A stretch of DNA of 32,061 nt. Source: Caldifarciminota bacterium (GTDB taxonomy: Bacteria; Hydrothermota; UBA3072). Made by a program: the position numbers and the translations under genes. The stretch is taken from assembly GCA_023131835.1 (NCBI GenBank), contig JAGLZA010000114.1, forward strand, positions 1 through 32,061, written 5' to 3'. Positions 1,653 to 28,209 of the stretch are shown in pieces. The stretch's first letter is position 1. The number at the start of each line of letters is the position of its first letter. The notes under the pieces are model-generated. The model was not told where the DNA came from. It did no database searches and worked only from the letters and a program-made list of their open reading frames with translations.

Positions 1653-1817
1653 CTTTGCGGACTTTATATTCTTTTGCACTCTTTGCGAGAAAAAACGGGG
1701 GCTGATGATGGGCTCTCTCTTCAATTACAAAAATCAGGGGTGGTGAAGGGCTTTGCGCCCTTTGCCTCCTTTGCGTTCTTTGCGAGAAAAATGAGGGTAA
1801 TGATTTATAATTCCCTC
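1653..1817 (+). repeat. promoter-linked GCGAGAAAAA repeat, copy D (two partial units)
   Basis: Two diverged units. 1653-1700 carries CTTTGCG-like words, TTTGCGAGAAAAAA and GGGGG. 1737-1805 carries GGTGGTGAAGGGCTTTGCG, CCCTTTGCC, CTTTGCGAGAAAAA and TGAGGGTAATG. They resemble copy B at 16105-16189 in order and orientation. The second ends just before the proposed rtcB promoter. Part of the stretch reads as an ORF on the minus strand, but this looks fortuitous. Confidence 0.6.
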
Positions 1818-1854: not shown

Positions 1855-4671
1855 ATGGAAAAAATAGGAGAGTGTAAGTGGCTGATTGAAAAAGAAGGAG
1901 GGATGAGGGTTCCTGGTATGATCATAGCATCCTCTGAACTTATGGAAGAAATCAGGAATGATAATTCTATCAACCAGGTTCGTAATGTGGCGTATCTGCC
2001 AGGGATTCAACTATATTCACTGGCAATGCCAGATATCCACTGGGGATATGGATTTCCAATAGGCGGGGTGGCTGCAATGGATATCGAAGAGGGAGTTATT
2101 TCACCCGGAGGTGTGGGGTATGATATTAACTGCCTCCCGGGTGATGCAGAGATTTTGACTCCTCTGGGATTTCGGAAAAAGATTAAAAGAATATCAGTTG
2201 GCGATGAAGTAACAGTATTGAATGATATGGTCGCCCGACCTACAGAGGTTATCTTAACCCTTGACAGAGAAGAACCAATCCTTTATACAATAAAGACGAG
2301 AGCAGGTTTTAAACTATCTTTATCTCCTGAGCACCCAATTCTTACAAGAAAGGGTATGAAAGATACCAGAGAACTTTCCAGAGGTGAGAAGGTTGCAATC
2401 CACCCGTTTAAAGGGATGGAATATGAAAGACCTGAAGAATTTGAGGTAATCTCGGAAGATATATTTCGAGAAACGATCAAAAAGGAATTAAAGAACCGGG
2501 GCCTTTTGCCGTTGACATCTCGAAATGAGAAGTTACCATATCTGTTGAAGATTTTTGGGTATCTTTTAGGCGATGGAACAGTCTACAATAAGAATTCTAT
2601 ATTTTATGGAGAAAGAAAAGATTTAGAAGAAATAAAAGAGGATTTGCGATTTTTAGGATACAGTGGCGCGATTTACGAAAGAGACCGTACGTATAATATA
2701 AATGGTTATAAATTTAGCAGAAAAGAAACCTCTCTAAAGGTTTCAGCAAGAAGCCTTGTTGAACTTCTGCGAGCGCTTGGTTACCCACGTGGAAATAAAA
2801 CAACCTCCGATGTCCAAATTCCCTCCTGGATGGTTGAATTACCTATATGGATGAAACGATTATTCCTGGCTTCATATTTTGGGGCCGAGATGTCTAAACC
2901 GAAAACTCCTAATGGTTATAATTTCTATATGCCGGAAGTGAAATTCTCAAGAAAGAAGGGGAATGAAGAAGTAGGATACAAATTCTTGAGCAATTTGCAA
3001 AAGATGCTTGAAGAATTCGGTATAAGTTCTAATATTTCAATAGCCAGGGAGACAAAAGATAGAATTCATTATAGGATTCTTGTCCATGGAAATCCAAAAA
3101 ACCTGCTAACTTTGTGGGAAAAAATAGGGTACGAGTATAACAGAAAAAGGAGAAGTCTGGCAATGGCAGCAATAGTTTACCTCAGGCTTAAACAAGCTGT
3201 CATTCACAAAAGAGAACTTTTACGAAAAAAGATACGAAATGAACAGGGAAAACGCCCCAGAAGAGAAATATTTGAAGAATATCAAGGCCAAATTAATAAG
3301 AGGTTTATTGAAAGAAGTTTATATGGGCAAACCGAAAAAGCCAGGCCTCCAGCTGGATTCATCAAGTTCGAGGAGTTTTTTGATGAGTTCAGTGAAGGGG
3401 AAATAGTTTATGATGAGGTTGTGGATATACAAAAGACTGTTCACAATGATAGAGTATATGATTTTACGATCAAGAATAACCACCATAACTTCGTTGCAAA
3501 TGGCTTTGTTGTCTCGAATTGCGGAGTTCGAGTTGTCAGAACCTCAATCCATTCTGATGATATCAAGGAAAGAATAGAAGATTTGACGAATAAGATATAT
3601 TCTCTTGTCCCTTGCGGAGTAGGTTCTACTAGCAATGTAAAACTTTCACAATCCGAATTAAAAACAGTCTTAAAGGACGGAGCATCATGGGCAGTAAGGA
3701 ATGGATTTGGATGGGACTCTGATATTGAATATACCGAGGAAAATGGTAAAATAGAGGGTGCAGACCCTGATGTGTTATCTGATAGAGCAATACAAAGAGG
3801 GAGGCCACAACTCGGAACATTAGGGGCAGGAAATCACTTTATAGAGATACAAAAAGTGGTTGAGATATATGATAAAGAAGCAGCCAGGGTTATGGGATTA
3901 GAAGAGGGATTGGTTACTGTTATGATACATACAGGCTCTCGTGGTCTTGGACATCAGGTGTGCAGTGATTGGGTGAAGAGCCTGATGAAGGTCCAGAATA
4001 AATTTAATTTCGACCTACCTGATAAAGAATTGATTTCTGCACCCATCCAATCCAAAGAAGGGCAGGGATACCTTTGCGCAATGAGAGCAGCAGCTAACTT
4101 TGCCTGGACAAACCGACAGATAATCCTATCCAGGGTAAGAGATGCCTTCGCTTTATTATTTGGACAATCTGCTGAATCACTTCAGATGAATCTCATTTAC
4201 GATGTAGCCCATAATATTGCAAAGATTGAGACACATACTGTTAACGGCGTAAAAAAGAAACTATGCGTCCATAGAAAGGGAGCAACCAGAGCATTTCCCC
4301 CTGACCATCCGGATATACCCTCGAGATATAAATCTATTGGACAACCTGTTTTGATACCGGGGGATATGGGGACAGCTTCTTATATTCTTGTGGGGACAGA
4401 GTCCGCAATGGAAGAAACCTTTGGTTCTACCTGTCATGGTGCAGGACGCAGACTCTCAAGAAAAAAAGCAATGAAGATAACAGGAGGTAGGTATATAAGA
4501 GATGAACTGGCAAAGAAGGGTATCTACATAAGAGCACATTCAATCAAGACTATCAGAGAAGAGGTTCCCGAAGCATATAAAGATATTGATATGGTAGTAG
4601 ATACTGTTTCCTCTATCGGAATATCAAAAAAGGTTGCCAGGATGGCTCCTATGGCCGTTATAAAAGGATGA
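1855..4671 (+). CDS. rtcB: RNA-splicing ligase RtcB, intein-containing precursor
   Basis: RtcB joins RNA 2',3'-cyclic phosphate or 3'-phosphate ends to 5'-OH ends using GTP and Mn2+, in RNA repair or tRNA splicing. The 938-residue precursor consists of a 475-residue RtcB, the normal length, plus a 463-residue intein (residues 93-555). Known active-site elements are present: DINCGVR with the metal-binding Cys (residue 556 of the precursor), GNHF (His661), HTGSRG (His692), DVAHN (His786) and CHGAGR (His861, equivalent to the guanylated His). The start is set by the conserved N-terminal pattern with a Trp and MRVPG; the in-frame Met18 lies inside that pattern although an AGGAGG precedes it. The stop overlaps the mutL start by ATGA. 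Splicing is needed because the intein lies directly before a catalytic Cys. Confidence 0.96.
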   Translation: MEKIGECKWLIEKEGGMRVPGMIIASSELMEEIRNDNSINQVRNVAYLPGIQLYSLAMPDIHWGYGFPIGGVAAMDIEEGVISPGGVGYDINCLPGDAEILTPLGFRKKIKRISVGDEVTVLNDMVARPTEVILTLDREEPILYTIKTRAGFKLSLSPEHPILTRKGMKDTRELSRGEKVAIHPFKGMEYERPEEFEVISEDIFRETIKKELKNRGLLPLTSRNEKLPYLLKIFGYLLGDGTVYNKNSIFYGERKDLEEIKEDLRFLGYSGAIYERDRTYNINGYKFSRKETSLKVSARSLVELLRALGYPRGNKTTSDVQIPSWMVELPIWMKRLFLASYFGAEMSKPKTPNGYNFYMPEVKFSRKKGNEEVGYKFLSNLQKMLEEFGISSNISIARETKDRIHYRILVHGNPKNLLTLWEKIGYEYNRKRRSLAMAAIVYLRLKQAVIHKRELLRKKIRNEQGKRPRREIFEEYQGQINKRFIERSLYGQTEKARPPAGFIKFEEFFDEFSEGEIVYDEVVDIQKTVHNDRVYDFTIKNNHHNFVANGFVVSNCGVRVVRTSIHSDDIKERIEDLTNKIYSLVPCGVGSTSNVKLSQSELKTVLKDGASWAVRNGFGWDSDIEYTEENGKIEGADPDVLSDRAIQRGRPQLGTLGAGNHFIEIQKVVEIYDKEAARVMGLEEGLVTVMIHTGSRGLGHQVCSDWVKSLMKVQNKFNFDLPDKELISAPIQSKEGQGYLCAMRAAANFAWTNRQIILSRVRDAFALLFGQSAESLQMNLIYDVAHNIAKIETHTVNGVKKKLCVHRKGATRAFPPDHPDIPSRYKSIGQPVLIPGDMGTASYILVGTESAMEETFGSTCHGAGRRLSRKKAMKITGGRYIRDELAKKGIYIRAHSIKTIREEVPEAYKDIDMVVDTVSSIGISKKVARMAPMAVIKG
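2131..3519 (+). mobile_element. intein with LAGLIDADG homing endonuclease, inserted in RtcB
   Basis: Begins with Cys1 in CLPGDAEILTPLG (block A). Block B is GFKLSLSPEHPILT, with Ser replacing the usual Thr of TxxH. It ends with the F/G blocks, VYDFTIKNNHHNFVANG then FVVSN, followed by the +1 Cys of the extein. The terminal Asn is present, but the penultimate residue is Ser rather than the usual His. Two LAGLIDADG-like helices lie between: FGYLLGDGT (Asp240 of the precursor) and LASYFGAEMS, with Glu at the second acidic site. The splicing domain looks complete and the endonuclease plausibly active. Inteins at this YDIN/CGVR site are known in archaeal RtcB proteins; horizontal acquisition is inferred. 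Confidence 0.95.
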
Positions 4672-12968: not shown

Positions 12969-13050
12969 GGGCGAACTGCGTTCGCCCTTTTGTAGGAGCG
13001 ACTTCCCAGTCGCGATTATGAAGTAGGGGCAATTCATGAATTGCCTCTAC
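12965..13050. repeat. three GTAGG-type hairpin repeats in a row
   Basis: 12965-12988: stem GGGCGAAC, loop TGC, GTTCGCCC. 12992-13016: GTAGGA then stem GCGACT, loop TCCC, AGTCGC. 13023-13050: GTAGGGGCAATTCA pairing with TGAATTGCCTCTAC, centred on CATG. The middle unit is repeated nearly identically at 14264 and 28185. No gene lies from here to the leader ORF at 13200; 13120-13150 holds short repeats of TAACGCA. Confidence 0.8.
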
Positions 13051-14293: not shown

Positions 14294-14309
14294 GTAGGGA
14301 CAAGGCATG
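14294..14309. repeat. left half of a hairpin repeat split by the IS element
   Basis: GTAGGGACAAGGCATG continues at 16025 as CATGCCTTGTCC. Removing the IS with one CATG restores a perfect palindrome with CATG at its centre, similar to the unit at 13023-13050. Confidence 0.75.
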
Positions 14310-14382
14310 GAGGCTGTCTCAAAACTCACACAAACAGATTACAAAGTAATCCAGTAAAAAACAATTATTCGCACTTCAAGTA

Positions 14383-14411
14383 TTGACAAAATGCTTGTAA
14401 TTGCTTACTTT
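14383..14411 (+). promoter_or_regulatory. probable transposase promoter
   Basis: TTGACA (14383-14388), 17 bases, TACTTT (14406-14411): perfect -35, weak -10. The first ATG, at 14424, opens an 11-codon leader ORF. Confidence 0.4.
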
Positions 14412-14423
14412 TAGTGAGTTATT

Positions 14424-14459
14424 ATGAAATATGGACTAAAGAATGGAGGAGAGTTATGA
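14424..14459 (+). CDS. leader ORF before the transposase
   Basis: Encodes MKYGLKNGGEL. Its TGA overlaps the transposase ATG at 14456 as ATGA, and the GGAGG ribosome site is inside it. It could limit or couple transposase synthesis. Unproven. Confidence 0.3.
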   Translation: MKYGLKNGGEL

Positions 14460-15874
14460 GCAATGAAATAGAAGCTAATTATAACCAACAGTATCTTTTT
14501 CCGCCGAGGTTAGAGGACTTACTCCCGAGCGATCATCCTGCAAGGTTTATAAGGGAGTTTGTAGATTCCATAAATTTAGATGAATTAGGGTTCAAGAGGA
14601 GAAAATCTGAAGAAGGTAGGCCTAACTATTCAGCTGAGTTATTAACAAAGGTGTGGCTTTACGGTTATTTTATCAGTATAAGGAGCTCCAGGAAGTTAGA
14701 GCAGGCTTGTATGGATAATATAGGGATGTTATGGTTGACAGGGATGAATTATCCTGATCATAACACATTATGGCGTTTTTACAGGGACAACAGAGAAGCA
14801 ATAAAGCAGTTATTTAAGAAAGTGGGAAGGATAGCAATGGAGGGAGGTCTTATAGGTTTAGTGTTAAATGCGATAGATGGGACAAAGATAACAGCTGATG
14901 TTTCTAGAAAGAACACATTGAGTAAGGAAGATCTGGAGGAACTTGCAAAAAAGTTAGAGGATTCAGTAGAGGAGGTCATTTCGGAGATTGAGTCAAAGGA
15001 GGGGGAAGGAGAAGGGGAATATAGATTACCCAAATCCTTAGCGGATAAGGATAACTTAAAGGAGTTTGTCAAGGAGAGATTAGAGAGGTTAGAGGAGGAA
15101 GGCAGGAAGTATATAAATTTGACTGATAAGGATTCAAGAATGATCAAGAACGGAAAAGTGAAAGAGTTTTGCTATAATGCGCAGGCTACCGTAGATAGTA
15201 AGCATGGTCTAATAGTTGGGGCAGATGTTATAGAAGAGGAGTCAGATAACCATCAATTAGTCAATAGAATAGAGGAAGTAAAGGAGACAGTAGGGAGAGA
15301 AGCAGATGAGAATCTCCTGGATGGAGGTTATTTTTCTGGTGAGGAGTTAAATCGTGCAGAGGAGAAGGGTTATAATGTTCTTATAAATATACCGAAAAAC
15401 GATTCTACTTCTAACAATAAATATAATAAATCCAATTTTACTTATGACGAGAAAAAGGATGTATATATATGTCCTAAGGAGAGAGAGTTACATTTTGAAA
15501 GGGAAAACCGAAGGAAAGACAAGGATTACCTAATCCGAGTATATCATTGTGATGGATATAAAGAATGTCCATACAGGTGGGAGTGCAGCGAGAATAAGAG
15601 AGGTAGGACAATAGATAGAACTTCTTACGATAGTGCTATTAGGAGACAAAGAGAGAAGCAAAAAGATGCTAATAAGGTGGAGTTACTTAAAAAGAGGAAG
15701 GAGATAGTAGAGCCAATTTTCGGATATATAAAGGCGATATTTGGGTTCAGGCGTTGGACGGTGCGTGGGATTGAAGGAGTTAGAGCCCAATGGTATATGA
15801 TATGCACGGCAGTAAATCTTCGTAAAATGTATAAGGAATGGTCAAAAGGGTCTTTCAAACTATTGGGAGCATAG
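14456..15874 (+). CDS. IS1182-family transposase
   Basis: 472 residues from the ATG at 14456, chosen because GGAGG lies 7 bases upstream; an in-frame GTG at 14414 would add 14 residues. N-terminal DUF772-like region: LFPPRLEDLLPSDHPARFI, GRPNYSAELLTKVWLYGY and IRSSRKLEQAC. The DDE catalytic residues are plausibly Asp141 (NAIDGTKI), Asp289 (LLDGGYFSG) and Glu419 (VEPIFGYIK). A Cys-rich insert (YICPKE...CDGYKECPYRWEC) precedes the last catalytic block. An acidic, Glu-rich stretch around 165-190 is a coiled-coil-like insertion. No frameshift or internal stop, so the element could be active. Confidence 0.93.
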   Translation: MSNEIEANYNQQYLFPPRLEDLLPSDHPARFIREFVDSINLDELGFKRRKSEEGRPNYSAELLTKVWLYGYFISIRSSRKLEQACMDNIGMLWLTGMNYPDHNTLWRFYRDNREAIKQLFKKVGRIAMEGGLIGLVLNAIDGTKITADVSRKNTLSKEDLEELAKKLEDSVEEVISEIESKEGEGEGEYRLPKSLADKDNLKEFVKERLERLEEEGRKYINLTDKDSRMIKNGKVKEFCYNAQATVDSKHGLIVGADVIEEESDNHQLVNRIEEVKETVGREADENLLDGGYFSGEELNRAEEKGYNVLINIPKNDSTSNNKYNKSNFTYDEKKDVYICPKERELHFERENRRKDKDYLIRVYHCDGYKECPYRWECSENKRGRTIDRTSYDSAIRRQREKQKDANKVELLKKRKEIVEPIFGYIKAIFGFRRWTVRGIEGVRAQWYMICTAVNLRKMYKEWSKGSFKLLGA

Positions 15875-16024
15875 AAAACTAAGGGGCAATCCCTTCAATT
15901 AGTCTTTTCCATCTTCTATTTTTCATATCGGTCACCTCAACTGGGGATAGAAACATATCCATCACTTTATATGATAAATATTTACTATAGTACATAAATA
16001 CAAAGAGTTTTTTGAGACAGCCTC

Positions 16025-16104
16025 CATGCCTTGTCCTTCTGTCTTTCCACTCCACGAACCCTTATCACATATCACATATCACCCAACGAACTCTATGAAC
16101 CCAA
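16025..16104. other. spacer right of the IS
   Basis: Holds the right half of the split hairpin repeat (16025-16036, CATGCCTTGTCC) and short direct repeats of CACATAT (16066-16083). No gene seen. The original right arm of the palindrome ends in TTCTGTC rather than CTAC. Confidence 0.5.
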
Positions 16105-16189
16105 TATAAATAAAGGGGATTGGTGGGGCTTTGCGAACTTTGCGCCCTTTGCGAGAAAAAAAAGGGGTAGTGTGGGGAAAAATCAACCC
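16105..16189 (+). repeat. promoter-linked GCGAGAAAAA repeat, copy B
   Basis: Matches the reverse complement of 1387-1486: GGGATTGGTGGGGCTTTGCG, then TTTGCG words, GCGAGAAAAAAAA, GGGGTAGTGTGGGG and ATCAACC, running straight into the TTGACA of the next promoter. Confidence 0.75.
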
Positions 16190-16217
16190 TTGACATAACC
16201 TTTTTCTTCATTATAAT
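16190..16217 (+). promoter_or_regulatory. consensus sigma70 promoter of the giant exoprotein gene
   Basis: TTGACA (16190-16195), 16 bases, TATAAT (16212-16217). Both boxes are perfect. Predicted start is about 16224, 7 bases before the leader ORF at 16231. Confidence 0.8.
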
Positions 16218-16230
16218 TTTTTACAACAAA

Positions 16231-16281
16231 ATGGAATCTAAAATGCCTGTTAAGGGAATCCTTAGATGGGGGAGGCAGTAA
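16231..16281 (+). CDS. leader ORF before the giant exoprotein
   Basis: 16 codons, MESKMPVKGILRWGRQ. Its TAA shares a base with the ATG at 16281 (TAATG), and the ribosome site GGGGGAGG for the giant gene lies inside it. The ATG is close to the predicted transcript start, so it could be read by a leaderless mechanism and coupled to the large gene. Expression is unproven. Confidence 0.4.
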   Translation: MESKMPVKGILRWGRQ

Positions 16282-19200
16282 TGTCCTTAATTAAAAGAAT
16301 ATTTTTATTTTCGTTTTTTGTCTTTTTTTCTCTTTTTTCAGATGAAATAGATGATGCCCTGAATTTTCTTTATTCAAATCAAAGCACCGATGGAAGCTGG
16401 GGTAATACTGCGCCGAATAAATTTCTATATACTACTGAGGTTCTAAAGACCTTGAAGATGTTTTCAGATACCACTGTTTACTTTCAAAATGGTGTTCAAT
16501 GGCTTATAAATCACTTCCCTGATGATATTGATTTTATCTCACGCAAATTATCAATCCTTGCAATGGAGAATGAAGATATAGAGGTATTAAAAAATAAAGT
16601 TCTTTCCTGGCAGAATGAAAATGGTGGCTTTGGATATAAGGATGGCTATGAGAGTAATCTATATTATACGATTTCAGCAATAGAGGGGCTTTCAAGTGCA
16701 GGGGATATGGATTCCTCAACAATAAAGGGATTGAATTATATAATAATCAATCAGAATCCCGACGGTAGTTTTTCTTTTAAGGATGATGGAGTAAATTCTA
16801 TATTTGTAACTGCACTAAGTTTATCTACACTCTCCAATTTCAGAGGCAATATTAGTGTAGAGAATGCTATTAATACAGGTGTTTCCTATCTTGGTTCACA
16901 GATGAATCCTGATTCAGGTTATGGAGAGGATGGAAGTAGTATCTATGAAACTGCCCTTGTGCTTCAATCCCTTTTTGATGTTAATAAAAGGCCTGATATA
17001 AGAACAATCTTAAAGGATTATATATGGGTTAGGCAGCTCCCTGACGGTTCCTGGAATGAAGATATCTATGAAACTGCCCTAGCTCTAAGGGTTTTGCAGA
17101 AATCAACATTACCTGACCTTTCCCTGGAATCCCTTGAATTAAATCCCACAAATATTAATCAGGGAGACACAGTAAGTGTAATTACAAGGATTGCAAATAT
17201 TGGTGATAGCGATGCACAGAATGTCAATCTCAGACTCTATGATGATGGTCAGGGTATAAAGGATACTCTATGTAATGAAGTCTTATCTGGAGATACCGCA
17301 GAGGTAGAGATTCTGTGGAATACTGGAGAAACGGTTGGATATCGGACAATTGGTGTTAGAATAGACCCTGATAACGAGATAGATGAACTCTCAAAGGAGA
17401 ATAATTATCAGGAGAAGATGGTTTATATTCAGGATACGGTTCCACCTGAGTCCCTGGATATCTATGTGCAGAACCCATATTTTTCACCAAATAGCGATGG
17501 CATAAAGGATATTTCATCTGTCTACTTCAGCGCATCAGAAGATGTCATTGTGGCTCTAAATATTACAGATAAGAATGGTAATACAGTAAAAGAACTACTT
17601 AGAGATGAATCATACTCGCAAGGGACATATTCAGTAGAGTGGGATGGCTCAGATAGCAGTATGAATATACTCAGAGATGGTGATTATGTTTACAATGTAT
17701 CCCTCACAGACAACGGAGGAAATACAGAGATAAGGCATCATTTTGTTGTGATTGATAACAATAAAACCCCTATATTTGAGAGCCTTGAGCCAAATAGAAT
17801 ATATATGGATAGGGTTATGGGAGATGACCCGGAGAATACCAGAGAATTATTGAAATACTATCCGGAATATGACCTTTGTTTTCTCGGTTTTAAAAATGAA
17901 TTTACTCAGGGTTATTTAGATATAGTTTTGAGTAATGGATTGAGAACCTATCTTGACATATTATGCGAATTCTGGGTTGGTCCCTATTACCATGGAAATG
18001 CTGATTTGCAATACTCAGATCCATACAACAAAATTTTCTTTAATGTAAGAAATAGAGAATCCCCTCTATATTCCTTTGATCTAAGTAATGAAGAATTGGA
18101 TAGCATAAGAGATGATGTAGTTAGATATCAGATATCCCCGAATTATAATAAAATCATATGTGAATCATATTCAGGACTATTTTTAACTGATTTTGATGGT
18201 TCATACTTCACTCATATCGGTAGTCACGCTGGAATTATGGAAGGTTCATGGTCTCCTGATGGTAATCTATTTGTCTATTATGACGCGGATAGTTCTGCAA
18301 TATTCTTGGCAGATCAGGCTCTCCTGAACACAAAAAAGATATTTGAATGTACCTTCTTTGATGCTTTTCCTGATGCATTTGCCTGGTCTGAAGACGGTTC
18401 TCGTTTCGCTTTTACGCAAGTTTTAGAAGGTGATTCTGTTCCTATTGCTGGAATCCTTATCTCTGATAGGATGGGCAGTTATCTTGATACTGTTGCCACT
18501 TTCTTGATTTATGGCCCTCATCCCCCCTTGAAAAAGAGAGTTTTAAGAGGGAAAGGGATGGGTATTTTTGAGGGGTTAAAGTGGCATCCTGACGGGAATG
18601 CTATCCTTATTTCCATTAGTAGAGTTGGATGGAAGAGAAAGGATGGGGTTCAGGACAAAAAAGGCTTGTATGAGATAGATTTAGAGAGTGACACAGTAAA
18701 ACTGTTATATGAATGGCCAGGAGGATATTCCGATATGCGGGAATTTCAATATGCATATAAAGGTTCCTTAATACTTTACCGTAAACATAAAGAGTTATAT
18801 TGTATGGACAGGAACGGAGACAACAGGATTTTAGTTTCAGCATTACCCACTTTCAACTGGTATGGAAAAACATATCTTTCTGAGAACGAAACCTTCTTCC
18901 TGTGGGAAGAAGAATATACTGGAATAAACCTTGATAATTTAACGACAAGGTTAAGACTCCAGAGACTTCTGGGGACACCCAATCAACTTACGATATCAGG
19001 TATAGTATGCGATAGAGGTCTTGAATACTATACATTGAGTTACGGTGAAGGAAAAGATCCTTCTGTTTATCAAACCTTTTATTCTAACTCAAATACTGTT
19101 CTTGATACGATTATAACCAATTGGATTCCTCCTCACTCTGGAAACTGGACAATCAGACTCCAGGCATCTGACAGGGCAGGAAATCTTTCGGAGGCAAAGG

Positions 19201-22200
19201 AGTTCATTTGTTGGGAAGGAGATGCATTGCTTACAAATCTATATGCAGAACCTGAATGTTTCTCACCTGGAAGTGAGGATGTAGTTGATTCAACAGTTAT
19301 CTCATATACAATATTAAAAGCAGAACCAGTGTTCTTTAATATAGTTGATCTGGCAGAAAACAGTGTATTTTTTAAGTATATGGAACACCCGATCCCCGGA
19401 GAATATTCATTTATATGGGATGGAAAAGATTATAGCGGAGACATTGTAAAGAATGGAAAATATTTTGTTAAAGCCTGTGGATATTCTACACCATTATATG
19501 TCGATACTATTCCACCAGATGTTTTTATTGATTTAAGTTTTGATCCAGATAATTTTGTTCGAAATGGTTATTATGACATTAGGATTGATGGAATGGTATA
19601 TGATTTAAACTTCAAAGGATATACCCTATATTTTACCTTTGAAGATACGAATCAATTTCTTCCTGTGCTTTCCGGCGCCAGACCCATTCCAGATACAACT
19701 TTCCTAATAGGATTTATTGGTCTTGAGGATCTTGGAACATATTATGCAAAATTTGTAGCAGAGGATTATGTGGGTCATCAAGAAACCGTTATTGACTCGA
19801 TATTTATAGATTCTTTTTATGTTAACGGAGAAATAGGAGAGGAAGAAGAGGATTATATTTTTTATTCAGAAGCAAGGATTTTTTTACCCGAGGTAGATAG
19901 TATTGTATTTTCAGTTCAATTTGGTCGTATTGTATTCGGTGCAGACAGCCTTGTGTGGACTCGACATGTTAGACAGGGAAGGGGGATTCTACTGGAAGAG
20001 AATTTTTACTACTGTAATGATTCTGTCGAAATACCCCACTTTGGTTCTGACGAAATACTATACGCAATACTATTCCAGGGTGATGTCTGGTATGGAGATA
20101 GTAATCATAGGGTTGCGTGTGATATTGATACAATTCCATTTCATAAAGAAGAAGGAAGAGGGTTATTGATTACCAATCCTCTGCATTCTTTTCCTGGAAG
20201 TCCACCACCGGTAGTTTCTAAGATCTATACTGTTGAAGCAGACTACTTCGCAAGAGATTCTGTAGGGAATCTTTTACCACATCCAGAATTCCTTGAATGG
20301 GTAAAATTTCAGTACGCTCCACTTGAAGACACGAGTTGGTTCACTAATATTGGTATAAAAGATGATTCTCTTCCGTTTCAACAACCCTGGAATACCTATT
20401 TATTACCGAATGGATTTTATAGATTGAAGGCAACAGGAATTGATACACTTGGAAGTCTGGATACATTACATGATAGAATTGATGTGGAAGTATTAAATAA
20501 TCCAATAACATTGCTTTTGCAGACCAGAGATTCTTATCTCCACCTTACTGATACAATCTATGCCCAGGTTTTAGCAGATACAATATTCCATGGAACCATC
20601 CAGAGTGTAAAATTCTCTTATATACTTTCTCTTGATACTACCCTTATTTCCGAAGACTTTGAATCTCCCTACCAGGTTCCGTTCAATACTCAACTACTCC
20701 CCGACACTCAAATTACCCTTATCGGCTATACTTGTGATGATATAGGGAACGATGCCTGGTCACAACCTCTGAGAGTAACGATAGATAATACCCTGCCTAT
20801 TGCCGAAATATCATACCCTACCAATGGAATGTCTTTTGATAATCCTGATACAATACCCGTTTTAGGAACAGCAAGCGATATGAATCTAAAGAACACTGAA
20901 ATAAACCTTGGTAGTATGGCAATAACAAAGGACCATTCCATATTTTCTGACACACTTACATTATTTGATACAAGAACACTCCAAACAGGTGATTATGAGA
21001 TTTCTGTGATTGTAGAGGATAAAGTAAACAATATTTCTGCAGATACAGTTGTGATAACAATAACAAATTCACCGATTCCAGATGTCTCTATTCTGAAACC
21101 GGATAGTAATTCCTTCCAGAACGATACAATGGAGATTGTATACAGTGTAACCGATGATAACCTTTCCTATTATGTCTTAAAATATGGAATAGGAGAAAAC
21201 CCTAATTATACTGTAATTGATTCAAATACCTCCAGTGGACAGAATAAACAATATATATTGAATACATCAGGCCTTCAGGATACCTTATATTCCCTGGTCC
21301 TTTATGCAAAGGATTTAACGGATAAGGAGAATAGTGATACATTGTTATTTACCGTTGATAATACAAATCCCTTTGTTTCAATCATATATCCTGAAGAATA
21401 CCAGAGATTAAAGGATAAATTCCCTGTTATTGGTAGTGTTTTAGACAGGAATCTTTATCAAGACACCCTATTTGTTGGAACCGGTGAGAATCCATCCGTA
21501 TGGACTGAGATAAAATCCTCTGATAGTCCTTTTGATAATGATACAATACTTGTTTGGAATCCATTTATGGATTCTGATGTCTACACATTCAGACTCTCTG
21601 CTGTAGATAAGGCTGGAAATATATCCGAGGATTCTGTGACAATATTTCTTGATACAATACCTCCGGCACCACCAGAAGGGATTACTGCGGTAGACAGCAT
21701 CGGCATTGTTGACCTGTCCTGGCTTCCCAATACAGAGGATGACCTGAATGGATATAATCTATTCAGGCAGGGGACTAAAATACATCAGGAATCTCTAACA
21801 GATACCTTTTTTGTGGATACACTCCCAGCAGTAGAGGGAATATATAAATACTATCTAACCGCTGTTGATATTCTTGATAATGAGAGTGAGTCTTCTGATA
21901 CGATCTCTGTAGAGGTTGACCTCTCCGCCCCTTATGCGAAGATTATCTCACCCGATAACAATCAGTGGATAAAGGGGATTGATACAGTAATGGGCACTAT
22001 AACCGATAAGAATCTGCTTGAATACAACCTTGAATATGCTCCTATTTCAGATACTAATTATACCCTCCTTGTTACAGGACTTTCGGAGATCCCTTATGGG
22101 GAAATATATAAATGGGATGTTTCTGGACTTTCAGAGGATTATAACCTGAGACTGAGAGCAGTGGACACCTATAATAATAGAGATACTTTTGAGATTATTG

Positions 22201-25200
22201 TTCGGGTGGATAATACCCCTCCTTTATTACCGGATTCTCTGACGGCAATACCACAGGGTTCACAGGTAGATTGCTCCTGGCTTCCTGCAACAGATGAACA
22301 CCTTTATGGATATTATCTCTACAGGAGTGGGGAAGAGGTGAATACCTTTATTATTCCTGATACATTCTATGTTGATACAGTCCCTGATGGCGAATTTTTC
22401 TATACTGTTGTAGCTTCCGATTCAGCTGGTAATCTGAGTGAGCCTGCAGGTCCTGAGAGTGTTATCGTGGATACAAGAGCCCCATCTGTTGTGATAACCC
22501 ATCCTTCGGAAGGGTCAACAGTGAATGGAGTTATTGATATTGTTACGATGTGTGAGGATTATGACCTATCCAGTGTGGTGTTCAAATATAAAGAGGAATC
22601 TGGGCCTTGGGATACCATAGGAATGATTCCCTTGCCACCATTTGTTATCCAGTTTAACACAGATACACTCTCCGATGGCAAATATTATCTTTCTGCAGTA
22701 GGAACGGATATTTTTGGAAACACAGACAATTCCCCTGATTCAATATTCATTTTCAAGAAGACAGACCTTACCCCACCAGAACCTCCGCAAGGGCTGATCT
22801 GCAATACCTCTCCATTGTTGAATGGGGGAAGGGTAGATTTATACTGGGAAAGGAACCTTGAGGATGATTTAGATAATTACAATATCTACAGGGATACAAT
22901 AAAGATAACATCTGTTTCTGATACATTCTTTACAGAGGATATCTCTGTAAATGAGTATATAATATACAATGTATCAGCGGTTGATACTGCATCAAATGAG
23001 AGTAGTCTTTCGGATTCTGTTATTGCAGACCTTGTTCCACCGGAACTAATTATTCATGGTCCTGAAGAATCTTGTACATATAGCAGAATAATACCAATAA
23101 CTGTAACCGTTAACGATAAAAGCCTTTCTTTATATCAGATACATTATGTATTATCTACTGACACAACTCTCCTTTATCAGGATAGCCTGAATGTGGTTGA
23201 GGGAACCGTTTACAGATGGAATACAGGGGATTTGAACGATACGGTAGTTCTCATCCTTACCGGTAGTGATGTCAACGGTTTTTCAGATACTGCATCTAAT
23301 GAGTTTATTGTTGACAATCTTCCTCCACCTCCTCCGGAAAGCCTTACTGCCGTCTTAAATCCGGATACCTCCATTACTCTGAACTGGTTGCCTGTTACAA
23401 CAGAGTCCGTATTTTACAATATATATTATTCCACGGTCTCAGGTACTGGATATGCAAAATTGAACACCGAACCGGTTTTGAATGAATCCTATCAAACAAG
23501 ATTACCCGGAGGTAAGACCTATTACTTTGTTGCAACTGCAGTTGATGAGGTTGAAAATGAAAGCGGATATTCAAATGAGGCATCCATATCACCACCGGTT
23601 GATGATATTGATATTGTCGTTGGAGATGGTGATATATGGAATTTCCCCTCTTCTCCTGTTGTGGGTGACTCTGTATTTACGGTTGTAAAGGTGCATAATA
23701 CAGGGAGTCACCCTGCAGAAAACTTCTCATTGAGGTTGATGGTCAAGCATAACGATAATTACTTCACATTGAACGAATGGATTGTTAATAATCTACTTCC
23801 TGATTCCTTACAAGAATTCTCATTTAATTGGGCAACCGATGGCCTTGCAGGGTTTGATACACTCTATCTCCTTGCAGACCCTGAGGATTATATAAGGGAA
23901 ACGGATGAATCAAACAATATCTATACCCTGCCCATAGAAATAAGGGAAACAGATATACTATTCTCATATTCTTTAAGCGATTCAGTTATCCCCCCATTCA
24001 CGGATCTAACTGCATATTATTCAATCACAAATACAGACGCGAACCAGAAAGACTTGATACTCTCATTCTCTATCCTTGACTCAGATAGCACTGTTATTAG
24101 CAGGGATTTTGATATTGAGCACCTTATAATTGATTCAATGCCTGCAGAAAGTACTTATGGTGACTTCTTCTACGATACAACCAATGCAAGGTTTGGAAGT
24201 ATCAGTATAACTGATTCAGGTGGTCCGGGAGAACATTCCTTTGGTTTCTCCTCGGATTCAATAATAATGGAACTTTCTGCCAATCAATGCATTGTCCAGT
24301 ATGTATACCTTGATTCAATAAATCCCCCATCAGAGATAATGATGGAATTTGAGGATAGATATGGAAACAGGGCTCACCGTGCTTTCTATGGTTCTGATCT
24401 GATAAACAGAGGAATATCAGGAACCTCATCAAGGAGAAAGCTGGGAGATCTCCCTGAAAAAGGGAAATGGGTAAGGCTCTTAATCCCTCTGGATTCAGTG
24501 GGTATCTATGACGGCGCAATAAAGGGAATAGAATTCCTGCACTATAATGGTAATATATTCTGGGACGGTACAGGTATAACCGGAAACGAAGTTTCCTTCT
24601 CCTTATCCCAGGGAGAAATAGAAGATATAGAGATATTATGGAACTCGGATGTATTTCCAGGTGGAGGATACAGTATAATATCATCCCTTGAGACTGGTTC
24701 TTCTCAAATTGAAAGGGCAATGCAGTTTGAAATAATGGATATCCCCGGAATGACAACCTATGTATATACAGATAAACCAAACTACGATTCCTATGAAAAT
24801 GTATATATAACAGCGGTTGCAATAAACAATAGTCCCAATCATACATATAATGACTTGAAGGAATTTATCACAATAGTTGATTCAATCGATGTGGTTTACT
24901 TTATGGATTCTACCATAATCCCTGTGATGTTACCAGGTTCAGAGGAAGAGCGCCAATTTGTCCATTGCACAGAATCTTCTCATCCAGGTATGTATTATAT
25001 AAAAGAATGTATTGTTTCGGATTCGGATACCCTAACAACCACCGAGAACCAGTTTTATGTGAATCCATCCTGGGGTGAAGATATAATGGTTGCAGGAAGG
25101 ATCTCCTCTACGCCAAAACTTATACCGTATCCTGATTCATTTACTATATCCTACTATCTACTGAATATAGGTAATTTACCAATAGATTCCCTTCCCTTCT

Positions 25201-28019
25201 CAATAAAGATCGTTCAAATGGAAGATGATACTACTCTATACACCCTCTGGGATACAGTTTCTCTTAATGTTTCCGATTCTACAGAAGGAGATTATCATTT
25301 CTCATCATCTTCCTTTGAACTGAAACCCTATGCACTATTCTTAAAAATTCATCCTGAGGATACAACATTGGATGTTGCGCTCTCAGGCTTTTTGGTTTCT
25401 GATCTTACCTCTCCTATAGTGGAAATCCTTGCACCTTCTGGTTTTGTAAACGGTAATGTTACTGTTCTAACAAATGGGATTGATGAAGCGAGTGGGATAG
25501 ATTCTCTCTATTTCAGTATAGATACAATAAATGTAAGGATGAATTTGATTTCAGGTGATTCATTAGACGGACAATACAGTGGTAATTTTGATTCACGAGG
25601 ACTGCCCGATGGTGAATTCAACCTCAATGTTCTGGGTGTTGATTATTATGGTAATTCCTCTCTGGATTCAACATCAATCAGGATAGACAATACTATTCCC
25701 GAGATAACCATTTCAGGGGTTCTGGACAGTTCTTATTATAATTGTGACCTCAATATAGTTGTTGGTTTCTTTGATGAACATCTTTGCACAACCATAGTAA
25801 AACTGAATGATGAAAACGTTTCTGAAAGCCTTTTTGTCTCGGAGGAAGGGAGATATTTGCTCTTTGCCTCTGCAGAGGATTCTGCGGGTAATCAACTGGA
25901 TTCAACCATATTCTTCGTTATTGATAAGACCCCTCCCTTGATAATCATCTCTGGTGTCTCTGATAGTTCTTTTTACAACCATTCTATATTTCCTTCATTC
26001 ACTGTGGCAGATTCAAACCCTGATACAACCTATGCGACCCTGAATGGAAATCCGTTTGAGAGTGGAACTATGATAGAAGAAGAAGGTGATTATGAACTAA
26101 ATGTCTATTCATCGGACCTTGCAGGGAATTTTTCTTCTGAATCCCTGTATTTTGTGATAGATACAACATCTCCGACCCCACCTCTTATAATAAGTCCGGA
26201 GGATTATGATACAATACCTCTTGATACTGTTACAATAACAGGACTTGGTGAAGGTAATTCAGAAATACATCTCTTCAGGGATTCCATTTCCCTTTCTGAT
26301 GTTGCTGATGACTCCGGATATTTTGATTTTCAGGGTGTATCTCTAAGCAGTGGGCTTAATCTCTTCAGGTTTATCTCCATTGACCTTGCAGGGAATGTGA
26401 GTGATACAACCTATCATCATCTTTATCATATTACAACAGAGTTTACCTGTTCTACAGAAATAACTCCCATTGCACGGGTTCTCTCTATAACAGATGATTC
26501 ATTGTTTATAGAGGATATTCTTAATTCAATGGATACATATTACAGGATAGTCAATAAAAAGGATGACTTTGAGAGGGAATTTCGCTCTGGGAAATACAAT
26601 ATATATCTTATCTCTGGAGATCATCCTTATATAGATCCTTTAATCCAGAACGAAATGAGGGAGGCAGTATTCAGGGGTGATGGTCTTGTAATGCTCACAT
26701 CCTCACCCTGCCAACCCGTGCCCCATCTTTACGAGCCTTTTGGTATTTGTGTCTTTGGACATCTTCCGGAATGCAATTATAATGCATTTTTTGACTCATC
26801 AGCAATATCCGATTACGACACCCTTGAACTAAATGGTAAGGTCTTGAGGATTGTCTTGAATGGGGGAGAGGAGATAGCAAGATTCAAGAAGAGGGGAAGG
26901 GAACAGGGATGGGGTTCCATTACATTGAAAGGATGGGTCAATTTCAGAAAGGATAGAGAATACGAGGTAGATATAATAGTATCAAGTGGATTGAATCTGA
27001 ATGACTCAATAGTTTCAGAACAATTCAAAGTTTCAAATACAGGAGAAGGTTTTGAGATCAAAGAAGGGACGGAGGTTGCACCTCCGTCACCATCGTCCCA
27101 TACGGATTCTATCTGGGATATAAGAATTGATTCAATAACCAACAAATTTATAGAATTCACAGTCACTTCCTCACAGATAATGGATGATTATTATACATTT
27201 CTTCTCAAGATAAATGATGAGAAGATTGGCCCTGTTCCAATACCATTAAAGAAGAACGAAGTTCTTGAAAAAGGTATGTCCTTTGGAGGATTTACGATAG
27301 AAAGGATTGAATCGCTATGCTGTGAACATCCGGCAGTTGTTCAGAATCAATATGGTAAAGGTAAGACATTCTTCTTCGGATTCAAACCACAACAGACAGA
27401 TGAAACCCAGAAGATTAAAGAAAAGATAAAGATGGCGGTTCTTAATGTAGTTCCTGACACAGACGAGGTATATATATATAATGTTGTCTCACCCATTGTA
27501 TCCTTATTTACCCCTGAGCCTCTTCAGGATGTAGAAGTCAAGGAAAGGATACCTGAAGGGTTTGAGTCCATTGCGGTTCTTGATTCAGGGGAAATAACAA
27601 TGGATGGGTTCAGGTGGATAAGGGATATCTCTGATTCCCTGATTCTCCGTTCCGTTGTCAGGCTTCCTAAAGAGCCATTTACCGATTCAATCCTTATAAC
27701 CGTAAACAATAAGGATTCACTCTTTATACCACTTGAGGCAGAAAAAGATGTATATGAGATGATCAATGATGTAATTTTCTTTCTTGATACATTAAACCTT
27801 TCAGGAGCGGATGATACAAGGAGAAATCTTGCGATTAGACTATTGAAAAGGGTTTATAATGAAGAGATAAATAAGAAAAAAGACCTTGTATGGAATATAA
27901 GGTTCTCGATTACTGCTGCCTATCTGGTCGGAGAGATAGAATCAATAGATTGTTCATCCTACAGGAGAGAAATAGACAGAACTATAAGGATATGGGAGGT
28001 AAAATGGTTCAAATGGTAA
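16281..28019 (+). CDS. giant secreted multidomain protein (3912 aa)
   Basis: Signal peptide 1-20 (KRIFLFSFFVFFSLFS). Then, by approximate residues: 21-278, an alpha/alpha-toroid of prenyltransferase/squalene-cyclase-type repeats (NQSTDGSWG, NENGGFGY, NPDGSFSF); 279-385, CARDB domain; 390-490, FlgD-like Ig (YFSPNSDGIKD); 497-893, beta-propeller-like (GSWSPDGNLF, LKWHPDGNAI); 980-1070, second FlgD-like; from about 1500, some ten Ig-like modules with (V/I)D(N/T)T.P starts, four FN3 domains (about 1793, 1979, 2163, 2346) and a second CARDB (2442-2556); about 3393-3700, a class-I amidotransferase-like fold ending YGKGKTFFFGF; and a charged helical C-terminus with no sorting motif I recognise. Start at 16281 is set by GGGGGAGG 5 bases upstream; an ATG at 16266 lacks one. 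Probably a surface or secreted adhesion/scaffold protein; function unknown. Confidence 0.88.
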   Translation: MSLIKRIFLFSFFVFFSLFSDEIDDALNFLYSNQSTDGSWGNTAPNKFLYTTEVLKTLKMFSDTTVYFQNGVQWLINHFPDDIDFISRKLSILAMENEDIEVLKNKVLSWQNENGGFGYKDGYESNLYYTISAIEGLSSAGDMDSSTIKGLNYIIINQNPDGSFSFKDDGVNSIFVTALSLSTLSNFRGNISVENAINTGVSYLGSQMNPDSGYGEDGSSIYETALVLQSLFDVNKRPDIRTILKDYIWVRQLPDGSWNEDIYETALALRVLQKSTLPDLSLESLELNPTNINQGDTVSVITRIANIGDSDAQNVNLRLYDDGQGIKDTLCNEVLSGDTAEVEILWNTGETVGYRTIGVRIDPDNEIDELSKENNYQEKMVYIQDTVPPESLDIYVQNPYFSPNSDGIKDISSVYFSASEDVIVALNITDKNGNTVKELLRDESYSQGTYSVEWDGSDSSMNILRDGDYVYNVSLTDNGGNTEIRHHFVVIDNNKTPIFESLEPNRIYMDRVMGDDPENTRELLKYYPEYDLCFLGFKNEFTQGYLDIVLSNGLRTYLDILCEFWVGPYYHGNADLQYSDPYNKIFFNVRNRESPLYSFDLSNEELDSIRDDVVRYQISPNYNKIICESYSGLFLTDFDGSYFTHIGSHAGIMEGSWSPDGNLFVYYDADSSAIFLADQALLNTKKIFECTFFDAFPDAFAWSEDGSRFAFTQVLEGDSVPIAGILISDRMGSYLDTVATFLIYGPHPPLKKRVLRGKGMGIFEGLKWHPDGNAILISISRVGWKRKDGVQDKKGLYEIDLESDTVKLLYEWPGGYSDMREFQYAYKGSLILYRKHKELYCMDRNGDNRILVSALPTFNWYGKTYLSENETFFLWEEEYTGINLDNLTTRLRLQRLLGTPNQLTISGIVCDRGLEYYTLSYGEGKDPSVYQTFYSNSNTVLDTIITNWIPPHSGNWTIRLQASDRAGNLSEAKEFICWEGDALLTNLYAEPECFSPGSEDVVDSTVISYTILKAEPVFFNIVDLAENSVFFKYMEHPIPGEYSFIWDGKDYSGDIVKNGKYFVKACGYSTPLYVDTIPPDVFIDLSFDPDNFVRNGYYDIRIDGMVYDLNFKGYTLYFTFEDTNQFLPVLSGARPIPDTTFLIGFIGLEDLGTYYAKFVAEDYVGHQETVIDSIFIDSFYVNGEIGEEEEDYIFYSEARIFLPEVDSIVFSVQFGRIVFGADSLVWTRHVRQGRGILLEENFYYCNDSVEIPHFGSDEILYAILFQGDVWYGDSNHRVACDIDTIPFHKEEGRGLLITNPLHSFPGSPPPVVSKIYTVEADYFARDSVGNLLPHPEFLEWVKFQYAPLEDTSWFTNIGIKDDSLPFQQPWNTYLLPNGFYRLKATGIDTLGSLDTLHDRIDVEVLNNPITLLLQTRDSYLHLTDTIYAQVLADTIFHGTIQSVKFSYILSLDTTLISEDFESPYQVPFNTQLLPDTQITLIGYTCDDIGNDAWSQPLRVTIDNTLPIAEISYPTNGMSFDNPDTIPVLGTASDMNLKNTEINLGSMAITKDHSIFSDTLTLFDTRTLQTGDYEISVIVEDKVNNISADTVVITITNSPIPDVSILKPDSNSFQNDTMEIVYSVTDDNLSYYVLKYGIGENPNYTVIDSNTSSGQNKQYILNTSGLQDTLYSLVLYAKDLTDKENSDTLLFTVDNTNPFVSIIYPEEYQRLKDKFPVIGSVLDRNLYQDTLFVGTGENPSVWTEIKSSDSPFDNDTILVWNPFMDSDVYTFRLSAVDKAGNISEDSVTIFLDTIPPAPPEGITAVDSIGIVDLSWLPNTEDDLNGYNLFRQGTKIHQESLTDTFFVDTLPAVEGIYKYYLTAVDILDNESESSDTISVEVDLSAPYAKIISPDNNQWIKGIDTVMGTITDKNLLEYNLEYAPISDTNYTLLVTGLSEIPYGEIYKWDVSGLSEDYNLRLRAVDTYNNRDTFEIIVRVDNTPPLLPDSLTAIPQGSQVDCSWLPATDEHLYGYYLYRSGEEVNTFIIPDTFYVDTVPDGEFFYTVVASDSAGNLSEPAGPESVIVDTRAPSVVITHPSEGSTVNGVIDIVTMCEDYDLSSVVFKYKEESGPWDTIGMIPLPPFVIQFNTDTLSDGKYYLSAVGTDIFGNTDNSPDSIFIFKKTDLTPPEPPQGLICNTSPLLNGGRVDLYWERNLEDDLDNYNIYRDTIKITSVSDTFFTEDISVNEYIIYNVSAVDTASNESSLSDSVIADLVPPELIIHGPEESCTYSRIIPITVTVNDKSLSLYQIHYVLSTDTTLLYQDSLNVVEGTVYRWNTGDLNDTVVLILTGSDVNGFSDTASNEFIVDNLPPPPPESLTAVLNPDTSITLNWLPVTTESVFYNIYYSTVSGTGYAKLNTEPVLNESYQTRLPGGKTYYFVATAVDEVENESGYSNEASISPPVDDIDIVVGDGDIWNFPSSPVVGDSVFTVVKVHNTGSHPAENFSLRLMVKHNDNYFTLNEWIVNNLLPDSLQEFSFNWATDGLAGFDTLYLLADPEDYIRETDESNNIYTLPIEIRETDILFSYSLSDSVIPPFTDLTAYYSITNTDANQKDLILSFSILDSDSTVISRDFDIEHLIIDSMPAESTYGDFFYDTTNARFGSISITDSGGPGEHSFGFSSDSIIMELSANQCIVQYVYLDSINPPSEIMMEFEDRYGNRAHRAFYGSDLINRGISGTSSRRKLGDLPEKGKWVRLLIPLDSVGIYDGAIKGIEFLHYNGNIFWDGTGITGNEVSFSLSQGEIEDIEILWNSDVFPGGGYSIISSLETGSSQIERAMQFEIMDIPGMTTYVYTDKPNYDSYENVYITAVAINNSPNHTYNDLKEFITIVDSIDVVYFMDSTIIPVMLPGSEEERQFVHCTESSHPGMYYIKECIVSDSDTLTTTENQFYVNPSWGEDIMVAGRISSTPKLIPYPDSFTISYYLLNIGNLPIDSLPFSIKIVQMEDDTTLYTLWDTVSLNVSDSTEGDYHFSSSSFELKPYALFLKIHPEDTTLDVALSGFLVSDLTSPIVEILAPSGFVNGNVTVLTNGIDEASGIDSLYFSIDTINVRMNLISGDSLDGQYSGNFDSRGLPDGEFNLNVLGVDYYGNSSLDSTSIRIDNTIPEITISGVLDSSYYNCDLNIVVGFFDEHLCTTIVKLNDENVSESLFVSEEGRYLLFASAEDSAGNQLDSTIFFVIDKTPPLIIISGVSDSSFYNHSIFPSFTVADSNPDTTYATLNGNPFESGTMIEEEGDYELNVYSSDLAGNFSSESLYFVIDTTSPTPPLIISPEDYDTIPLDTVTITGLGEGNSEIHLFRDSISLSDVADDSGYFDFQGVSLSSGLNLFRFISIDLAGNVSDTTYHHLYHITTEFTCSTEITPIARVLSITDDSLFIEDILNSMDTYYRIVNKKDDFEREFRSGKYNIYLISGDHPYIDPLIQNEMREAVFRGDGLVMLTSSPCQPVPHLYEPFGICVFGHLPECNYNAFFDSSAISDYDTLELNGKVLRIVLNGGEEIARFKKRGREQGWGSITLKGWVNFRKDREYEVDIIVSSGLNLNDSIVSEQFKVSNTGEGFEIKEGTEVAPPSPSSHTDSIWDIRIDSITNKFIEFTVTSSQIMDDYYTFLLKINDEKIGPVPIPLKKNEVLEKGMSFGGFTIERIESLCCEHPAVVQNQYGKGKTFFFGFKPQQTDETQKIKEKIKMAVLNVVPDTDEVYIYNVVSPIVSLFTPEPLQDVEVKERIPEGFESIAVLDSGEITMDGFRWIRDISDSLILRSVVRLPKEPFTDSILITVNNKDSLFIPLEAEKDVYEMINDVIFFLDTLNLSGADDTRRNLAIRLLKRVYNEEINKKKDLVWNIRFSITAAYLVGEIESIDCSSYRREIDRTIRIWEVKWFKW
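18522..18555. repeat. possible hairpin repeat inside the giant gene
   Basis: CCCCCCTTGAAAAA and TTTTAAGAGGG form an imperfect inverted pair. It encodes a basic stretch (PPLKKRVLRGKG) within an otherwise acidic propeller-like region, as expected of an inserted repeat. Weak evidence. Confidence 0.3.
27067..27091. repeat. hairpin repeat inside the giant gene
   Basis: GACGGAGGT, loop TGC, ACCTCCGTC: a perfect 9-bp stem, of the same form as the intergenic GTAGGG units. It encodes TEVAPPSPS, a linker-like stretch, in frame. Confidence 0.6.
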
Positions 28020-28044: not shown

Positions 28045-28209
28045 ACCACAGAGGCAGAAAGGACACCTGTCTGCGTGCAACGCACAGGCAGGCAAAGCCC
28101 TACCAATCCCCTTTATTTTGTGTGTTTTCGGAGTAGCGCAACTTGTTGCGCGGCCCCGTAGGGGCGAGGTCTCCTCGCCCTCTTGTAGGAGCGACTTCCC
28201 AGTCGCGAT
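28045..28209. repeat. repeat cluster between the two large secreted-protein genes
   Basis: Contains an imperfect palindrome at 28066-28092 (CCTGTCTGCGTG to CGCACAGGCAGG), copy C of the longer repeat at 28092-28132 (matches 1456-1497), a hairpin at 28133-28152 (GCGCAAC TT GTTGCGC), one at 28158-28180 (GGGCGAGG TCT CCTCGCCC) and one at 28185-28209 identical to those at 12992 and 14264. No clear promoter was found here. Confidence 0.8.

Follow-up and report, generated by a model that had tools for sequence, protein, structure and literature searches.

A repeat that precedes promoters in the 32,061-nt stretch of DNA analysed here (the window; contig C18 of the 3.89-Mb, 537-contig home genome) is very probably a non-autonomous DNA transposon (MITE), moved by the transposase of a parent insertion sequence and inserted 3–4 bp from the motif TTGAC through a 10-bp staggered cut. 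The ends of the element, its target-site duplications, spacing and orientation bias, elements of the same architecture in sister genera, and transposase-like coding pieces in a related element can all be read directly from the sequences. At that level the mobility of the element and its target rule are well supported; we infer the transposase assignment and the mechanism of recognition.

Copies of the repeat and their surroundings

The preliminary description of this DNA had reported two similar sequences, at 16105–16195 and, on the minus strand, at 1381–1486, each before a TTGACA promoter. Both are confirmed, with boundaries now placed at 16095–16174 (+) and 1403–1493 (−); copies at 1727–1802 (+) and 28082–28131 (−) had been missed. 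The copies and the features around them are:

16095–16174, + strand: element copy 1, the right part of the MITE (AATAAAGGGGATTGGTGGGG, CTTTGCG array, GAGAAAAAAAAGGGGTAGTGTG); profile match of 72.2 bits, aligned with 15 other copies
16175–16189, + strand: linker GGGAAAAATCAACCC from the end of copy 1 to the -35, read from the sequence
16190–16217, + strand: promoter TTGACA-N16-TATAAT of the giant exoprotein gene, also the target site, read from the sequence
16266–28019, + strand: gene for a 3917-aa CARDB/Big-domain exoprotein (Pfam), 3′ of copy 1
1403–1493, − strand: element copy 2; profile match of 86.7 bits
1387–1402, − strand: linker from copy 2 to the -35, read from the sequence
1359–1386, − strand: promoter TTGACA-N16-TATACT of the ankyrin lipoprotein gene, also the target site, read from the sequence
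542–1339, − strand: ankyrin-repeat protein gene (Pfam), 3′ of copy 2
1673–1726, + strand: upstream unit TTTGCGAGAAAAAACGGGGGCTGATGATGGGCTCTCTCTTCAATT of a composite element ending in copy 3; the junction recurs at C513, C124 and C348
1727–1802, + strand: element copy 3, divergent from copy 2 and facing rtcB; profile match of 45.5 bits
1818–1845, + strand: rtcB promoter TTGAAT-N16-TATAAT, faced by copy 3, read from the sequence
1855–4671, + strand: RtcB gene with an intein (Pfam), 3′ of copy 3
28082–28131, − strand: copy 4, a half copy covering profile positions 2–50 only; 36.1 bits

The promoters beyond copies 1 and 2 each have a 16-nt spacer (TTGACA at 16190–16195 and TATAAT at 16212–16217; on the minus strand, TTGACA at 1386–1381 and TATACT at 1364–1359), and the linker between repeat and TTGACA measures 15–16 nt at both. 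Copy 1 has lost its left end. The left-half sequence of copy 2 runs on to ~1550 (palindrome GTAGGAGCGTTTAATTGAACGTCCCTAC; left-half match at 1490–1550), in a divergent intergenic region that it shares with copy 3, and copy 4 lacks the right end and has no relation to any promoter. The window copies themselves show no target-site duplication. No partner was found for the GGGAAAAATCAACCC linker of copy 1, whose left end is lost; by the linker rule of full elements, this linker is expected to contain one copy of the duplicated target. The exoprotein promoter would be pre-existing, older than the insertion of copy 1.

The window holds other features of its own. Directly upstream of copy 1, an insertion sequence at 14298–16036 encodes a DUF772/DDE_Tnp_1_6 transposase (14414–15874) and is bounded by perfect 27-bp inverted repeats, TTTTGAGACAGCCTCCATGCCTTGTCC, with ends unrelated to those of the repeat. 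The RtcB intein (1855–4671) contains a LAGLIDADG domain. Other dispersed palindromic repeats (GTAGGAGCGACTTCCCAGTCGCGA, GTAGGGGCGA and others) populate intergenic DNA, in the window at 12991, 14264, 28184 and 30336 and at many more places, and tandem arrays (TTTAACTA, TTTTGCA, ATCTGCG) likewise belong to the intergenic fill. An Rfam scan of the window matched no model.

In the home genome, a 101-nt query matches at least 52 places and a profile search yields at least 153 matches at E ≤ 1, at least ~130 of them above 24 bits, so the likeness of the two window copies is not due to chance; all genome counts are lower bounds, and the end position of the repeat is fuzzy by 1–3 nt. Aligned copies share a layout of AATAAAGGGGATTGGTGGGG, a variable array of CTTTGCG- or CTCTGTG-type units, an A-tract and GGGGGGTAGTGTG. 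Full elements, recovered by searching with left-hand sequence, begin with CNNNCTACCCCCCA and end in TGGGGGGTAGTGTG; their consensus of ~216 nt runs from CTGCCTACCCCCCAAAATTTTA to a G-rich right end, TGGGGGG(TAGTGTG), and has an inner palindrome, GTAGGGGCGTTCAATTGAACGCCCCTAC. The terminal inverted repeats are imperfect (left CTGCCTACCCCCCA, right reverse complement CACACTACCCCCCA), and in most copies the left end is no longer recognisable. More than 100 copies are present, ~200–390 nt in length (~205–390 nt in the MITE test), with no coding capacity seen. In its sequence features the repeat fits a non-coding MITE: short (within 50–1000 bp) and high-copy, lacking a transposase gene, with terminal inverted repeats and target-site duplications. 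REP/BIME identity was rejected, as the element is directional and longer than 200 nt, and its 28-bp palindrome is an inner part rather than a 20–40-nt palindromic unit.

Target-site duplications and the linker

Duplications of 10 bp are exact in C139, C488 and C3, match at 9 of 10 positions in C434, C104 and C211 and at 8 of 10 in C120, and reach 10 of 11, judged by eye, in C49. Most elements with a clear left end show 8/10 or better, and mismatched pairs of left and right flanks, used as a control, reach 9/10 or better in 0.3%. Thirty-one candidate left ends were scored, most of them weak matches with background-level flanks; the duplications come from the clear ones. It follows that the linker between element and -35 is the duplicated target plus 3–4 nt, and the distance from element end to TTGAC is accordingly 13–14 nt. 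In C488, a young element occupies the gap that separates an older CTCTGTGG-type unit from the -35, with the old linker duplicated. The same site was thus hit again, which explains the stacks of repeats; at least 34 copies are inner units with a further unit after them, and they include many of the copies without a promoter of their own.

The linker bears directly on one reading put forward earlier, that of a mobile, promoter-carrying repeat; on this view genes would receive from it the -35, perhaps with more. Its first half stands: mobility is well supported at the sequence level by the 10-bp duplications, by ends that resemble inverted repeats and by an element of a sister genus that has this type of end and a transposase-like gene. 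Its second half does not, since the -35, once taken as part of the similarity, lies outside the element, past a variable, non-conserved linker that equals the duplicated target. ATCAACC, also assigned to the repeat, belongs to that linker (ATCAACC-N0-3-TTGACA occurs at least 4 times in the home genome). The near-constant distance to the -35 would suit a carried promoter, and promoters are indeed present within Correia and BrickBuilt MITEs (PMC10969869, PMC4596501), but beyond the hexamer the sequence logo reveals nothing shared at or after the -35. Moreover, three paralogous genes have one promoter and coding start in common with different repeat stacks in front, and in C139 the element faces TTGACA with its other end. 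Promoter donation is thus largely refuted, and we consider it highly improbable.

Position and orientation relative to promoters

When copies were mapped over the home genome and compared with shuffles, the bias of position and orientation towards promoters, whose absence had been set beforehand as a refutation, proved very strong. Among the 121 listed copies whose right part is intact, a same-orientation promoter (TTGACA-N15-18-TATAAT-like) lies within 60 nt in 58, against 13.5 in shuffles; the other three strand and side arrangements account for 11, 8 and 5 of the same 121. The -35 of these promoters peaks 10–17 nt after the repeat (median 13). A pattern independent of the repeat, with AAAANGGGG of the right end alone before a promoter, gave at least 39 matches in the home genome, against 0 with the end turned around and 0 for a reversed-letter control. 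By eye, about 12 or 13 of 30 sampled exact-consensus promoters of the home genome carry the repeat. Random insertion, with survivors only at harmless sites just upstream of promoters, would produce the intergenic bias, but it predicts an excluded zone rather than a 13-nt peak with fixed orientation. That peak refutes it and, with the orientation control (39 against 0), leaves it next to no probability.

TTGAC is the commonest 5-mer in the zone after the repeat (58 of the 108 copies listed), and 59 of the 74 terminal right ends listed face it; five of the other 15 face TTGAA, TTGAT or TTGAG, and about ten face no TTGA motif. The full copy at C139 has no TTGAC on its right and has TTGACA 13 nt from its left end, which indicates that the target, not the element, sets orientation. 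Just right of this element (L236), GCGTATAACGTTCTGTGTG...GCACACACGTTGTCATG resembles an integron attC-type imperfect palindrome.

Under the transposon reading, a parent insertion sequence with matching ends would supply the transposase that moves the MITE, and a 10-bp staggered cut 3–4 bp from TTGAC would place one element end 13–14 nt from that motif. Insertions would land ~50 bp upstream of transcription starts, beside already existing promoters and in an orientation set by the target; they would pile up there because TTGACA is also the consensus -35 hexamer. Stacks would arise as later insertions hit the linker that separates an older copy from the -35, and placement upstream of the -35 would be tolerated because the promoter is left intact. 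The feature recognised would be DNA sequence.

Most faced TTGACs are -35 boxes. A -10 accompanies 83% of them, compared with 47% of other intergenic TTGACs (Fisher p = 6e-7) and 22.5% of those in coding sequence, so the bare motif is not the whole story and real promoters are favoured beyond it. Faced TTGACs also have C at -1 in 80% versus 48% and are T-rich at -6 and -7. The excess of -10 boxes may reflect a longer recognised signal, bound polymerase, or survival. Recognition of a promoter complex (RNA polymerase holoenzyme, or sigma region 4 at the -35) instead of bare TTGAC would account for it, and the footprint of RNA polymerase at promoters ends about where the element end lies. However, copies at C37, C24 and C533 face TTGACG or TTGACT inside the coding sequence of convergent genes, the TTGACA at C139 has no good -10, and purifying selection in genes combined with the rarity of non-promoter TTGAC could yield the same ratio; we regard this version as possible but doubtful. 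Directional erosion, raised since right ends abut convergent stop codons, was dropped, as TTGAC motifs and duplications explained several cases.

The other earlier suggestion, an upstream element that jointly controls envelope or secreted proteins, does not fit the downstream genes, which are unrelated and in many cases housekeeping (SMC/RecF, DHDPS, glutamyl-tRNA synthetase, 5′-3′ exonuclease, a Fur-family protein, a sigma factor, RNase P protein, NAD synthase, rtcB and a tRNA). More generally, an UP-element-like or regulator site might have been copied around and kept by selection for raising or insulating transcription; its position near -50, the A-tract and G-rich blocks, and its occurrence at promoters in other genera of the family would agree with this, and it could apply as later domestication. 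Nevertheless, spacing varies over 10–17 nt and not by helical turns, copies form tandem stacks or abut convergent stop codons, the targets are unrelated housekeeping genes, and the hallmarks of insertion account for the position without selection, which makes such a site unlikely.

Two further observations concern what follows the element. At tRNA-like genes (L220/L013, C35:9300; L074 in G004; tRNA identity by eye), it lies ~9–15 nt upstream of the promoter TTGACA, and the leader after the element at C5:21739 (L094, C5 near 21,600) resembles a cobalamin riboswitch (GTTAAGGGAAAACGGTGAGAATCCGTTGCAGCCCCGCTACTG).

Sister genera and known systems

A sister genus, G002, holds a multi-copy element that breaks contigs, with ends CTGACAACCCCCCAAAATTTT and AAAATGGGGGGTTGTCAG and perfect 13-bp end repeats, CTGACAACCCCCC. 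Four of six of its ends face TTGAC or TTGAT, at 13, 13, 14 and 13 nt, and a fifth faces TTGACA at 22 nt; two contig ends carry an identical 10-bp flank, TATGTTCTTT, which would fit one insertion with a 10-bp duplication. The interior holds the start and end of an open frame, an N-terminal piece of 84 aa and a C-terminal one of 58 aa, the latter being 48–50% identical to a frame in a ~395-bp deleted relative at C129 of the home genome. This relative ends in GGGGGGTAGG, 18 nt before TTGACA, and holds the 3′ end of a transposase-like gene. From its position in the element, we infer that the frame encodes the transposase. Neither piece matched a Pfam or NCBIfam model, and no plasmid or viral relatives of them were found. 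No full-length transposase or complete autonomous element was recovered, the G002 copies being broken by contig ends, and a left-end pattern search of the home genome found no autonomous copy (the C129 relative was found later). The right end of the MITE also precedes promoters in other genera of the family. A GTDB-wide pattern (TCTGTGGTTAAAA plus promoter) gave at least 18 matches, of which those in a WOR-3 relative resemble this element; several in other phyla lack the array and may be chance, and cross-phylum spread is not claimed. A phylum search with the CTTTGCG variant matched only 3 of 147 genomes.

MITEs are an ordinary kind of element. The target rule that these sequences support, TTGAC-N3/4-(10-bp duplication)-end, was not found described, and searches of the literature on the repeat sequence and on promoter-targeted insertion returned nothing matching. 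With a fixed TTGAC rule, regulation need not be invoked to explain a large class of this lineage's intergenic repeats, and such repeats could be used to mark real promoters in an uncultured phylum. The rule also urges caution: conservation of a sequence ahead of many promoters does not in itself make that sequence a regulatory motif. Duplications of 9–12 bp and terminal inverted repeats are features of insertion sequences of the IS4 type and other DDE types. Our element resembles these in both respects; its transposase-like pieces (84 and 58 aa only) match no Pfam or NCBIfam model and are assigned to no family.

Among bacterial repeats, the BrickBuilt MITE of Porphyromonas gingivalis, as far as its published account was available, is likewise intergenic and MITE-like; it has terminal repeats and, inside, a tandem-repeat array whose number of units varies. 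It differs in having 19 copies, variable duplications and a promoter inside the element, and that text describes no constant spacing to -35 boxes (PMC4596501). Correia elements of Neisseria, RUP/BOX and ERIC are, as here, high-copy non-autonomous repeats near genes, and pneumococcal elements cluster and nest, but Correia elements carry promoters, unlike this repeat (passages of PMC10969869). On insertion-site preference, the same passages of this prokaryotic MITE review give a general intergenic location and no fixed -35 spacing (PMC10969869). None of the papers found describes a bacterial transposon that spares its host by targeting a promoter element.

The closest parallels in placement are Dictyostelium TRE5 and DGLT-A and yeast Ty3, which insert ~50 bp or 15 bp upstream of tRNA genes, Ty3 being steered by a Pol III factor (PMC5006619). 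Like our repeat, they are mobile, occupy compact genomes and keep a short, constant distance from the transcription units that they precede; they are eukaryotic retrotransposons, whereas here a bacterial DNA element lies at sigma-70-type promoters. By analogy, the insertion sequence and its MITEs might find promoters through contacts with sigma factor or with RNA polymerase during initiation; to this tentative idea we give a minority chance. If true, it would be a bacterial counterpart of Ty3/TRE5 targeting, a safe-site strategy that built promoter-proximal repeat stacks across a WOR-3 family.
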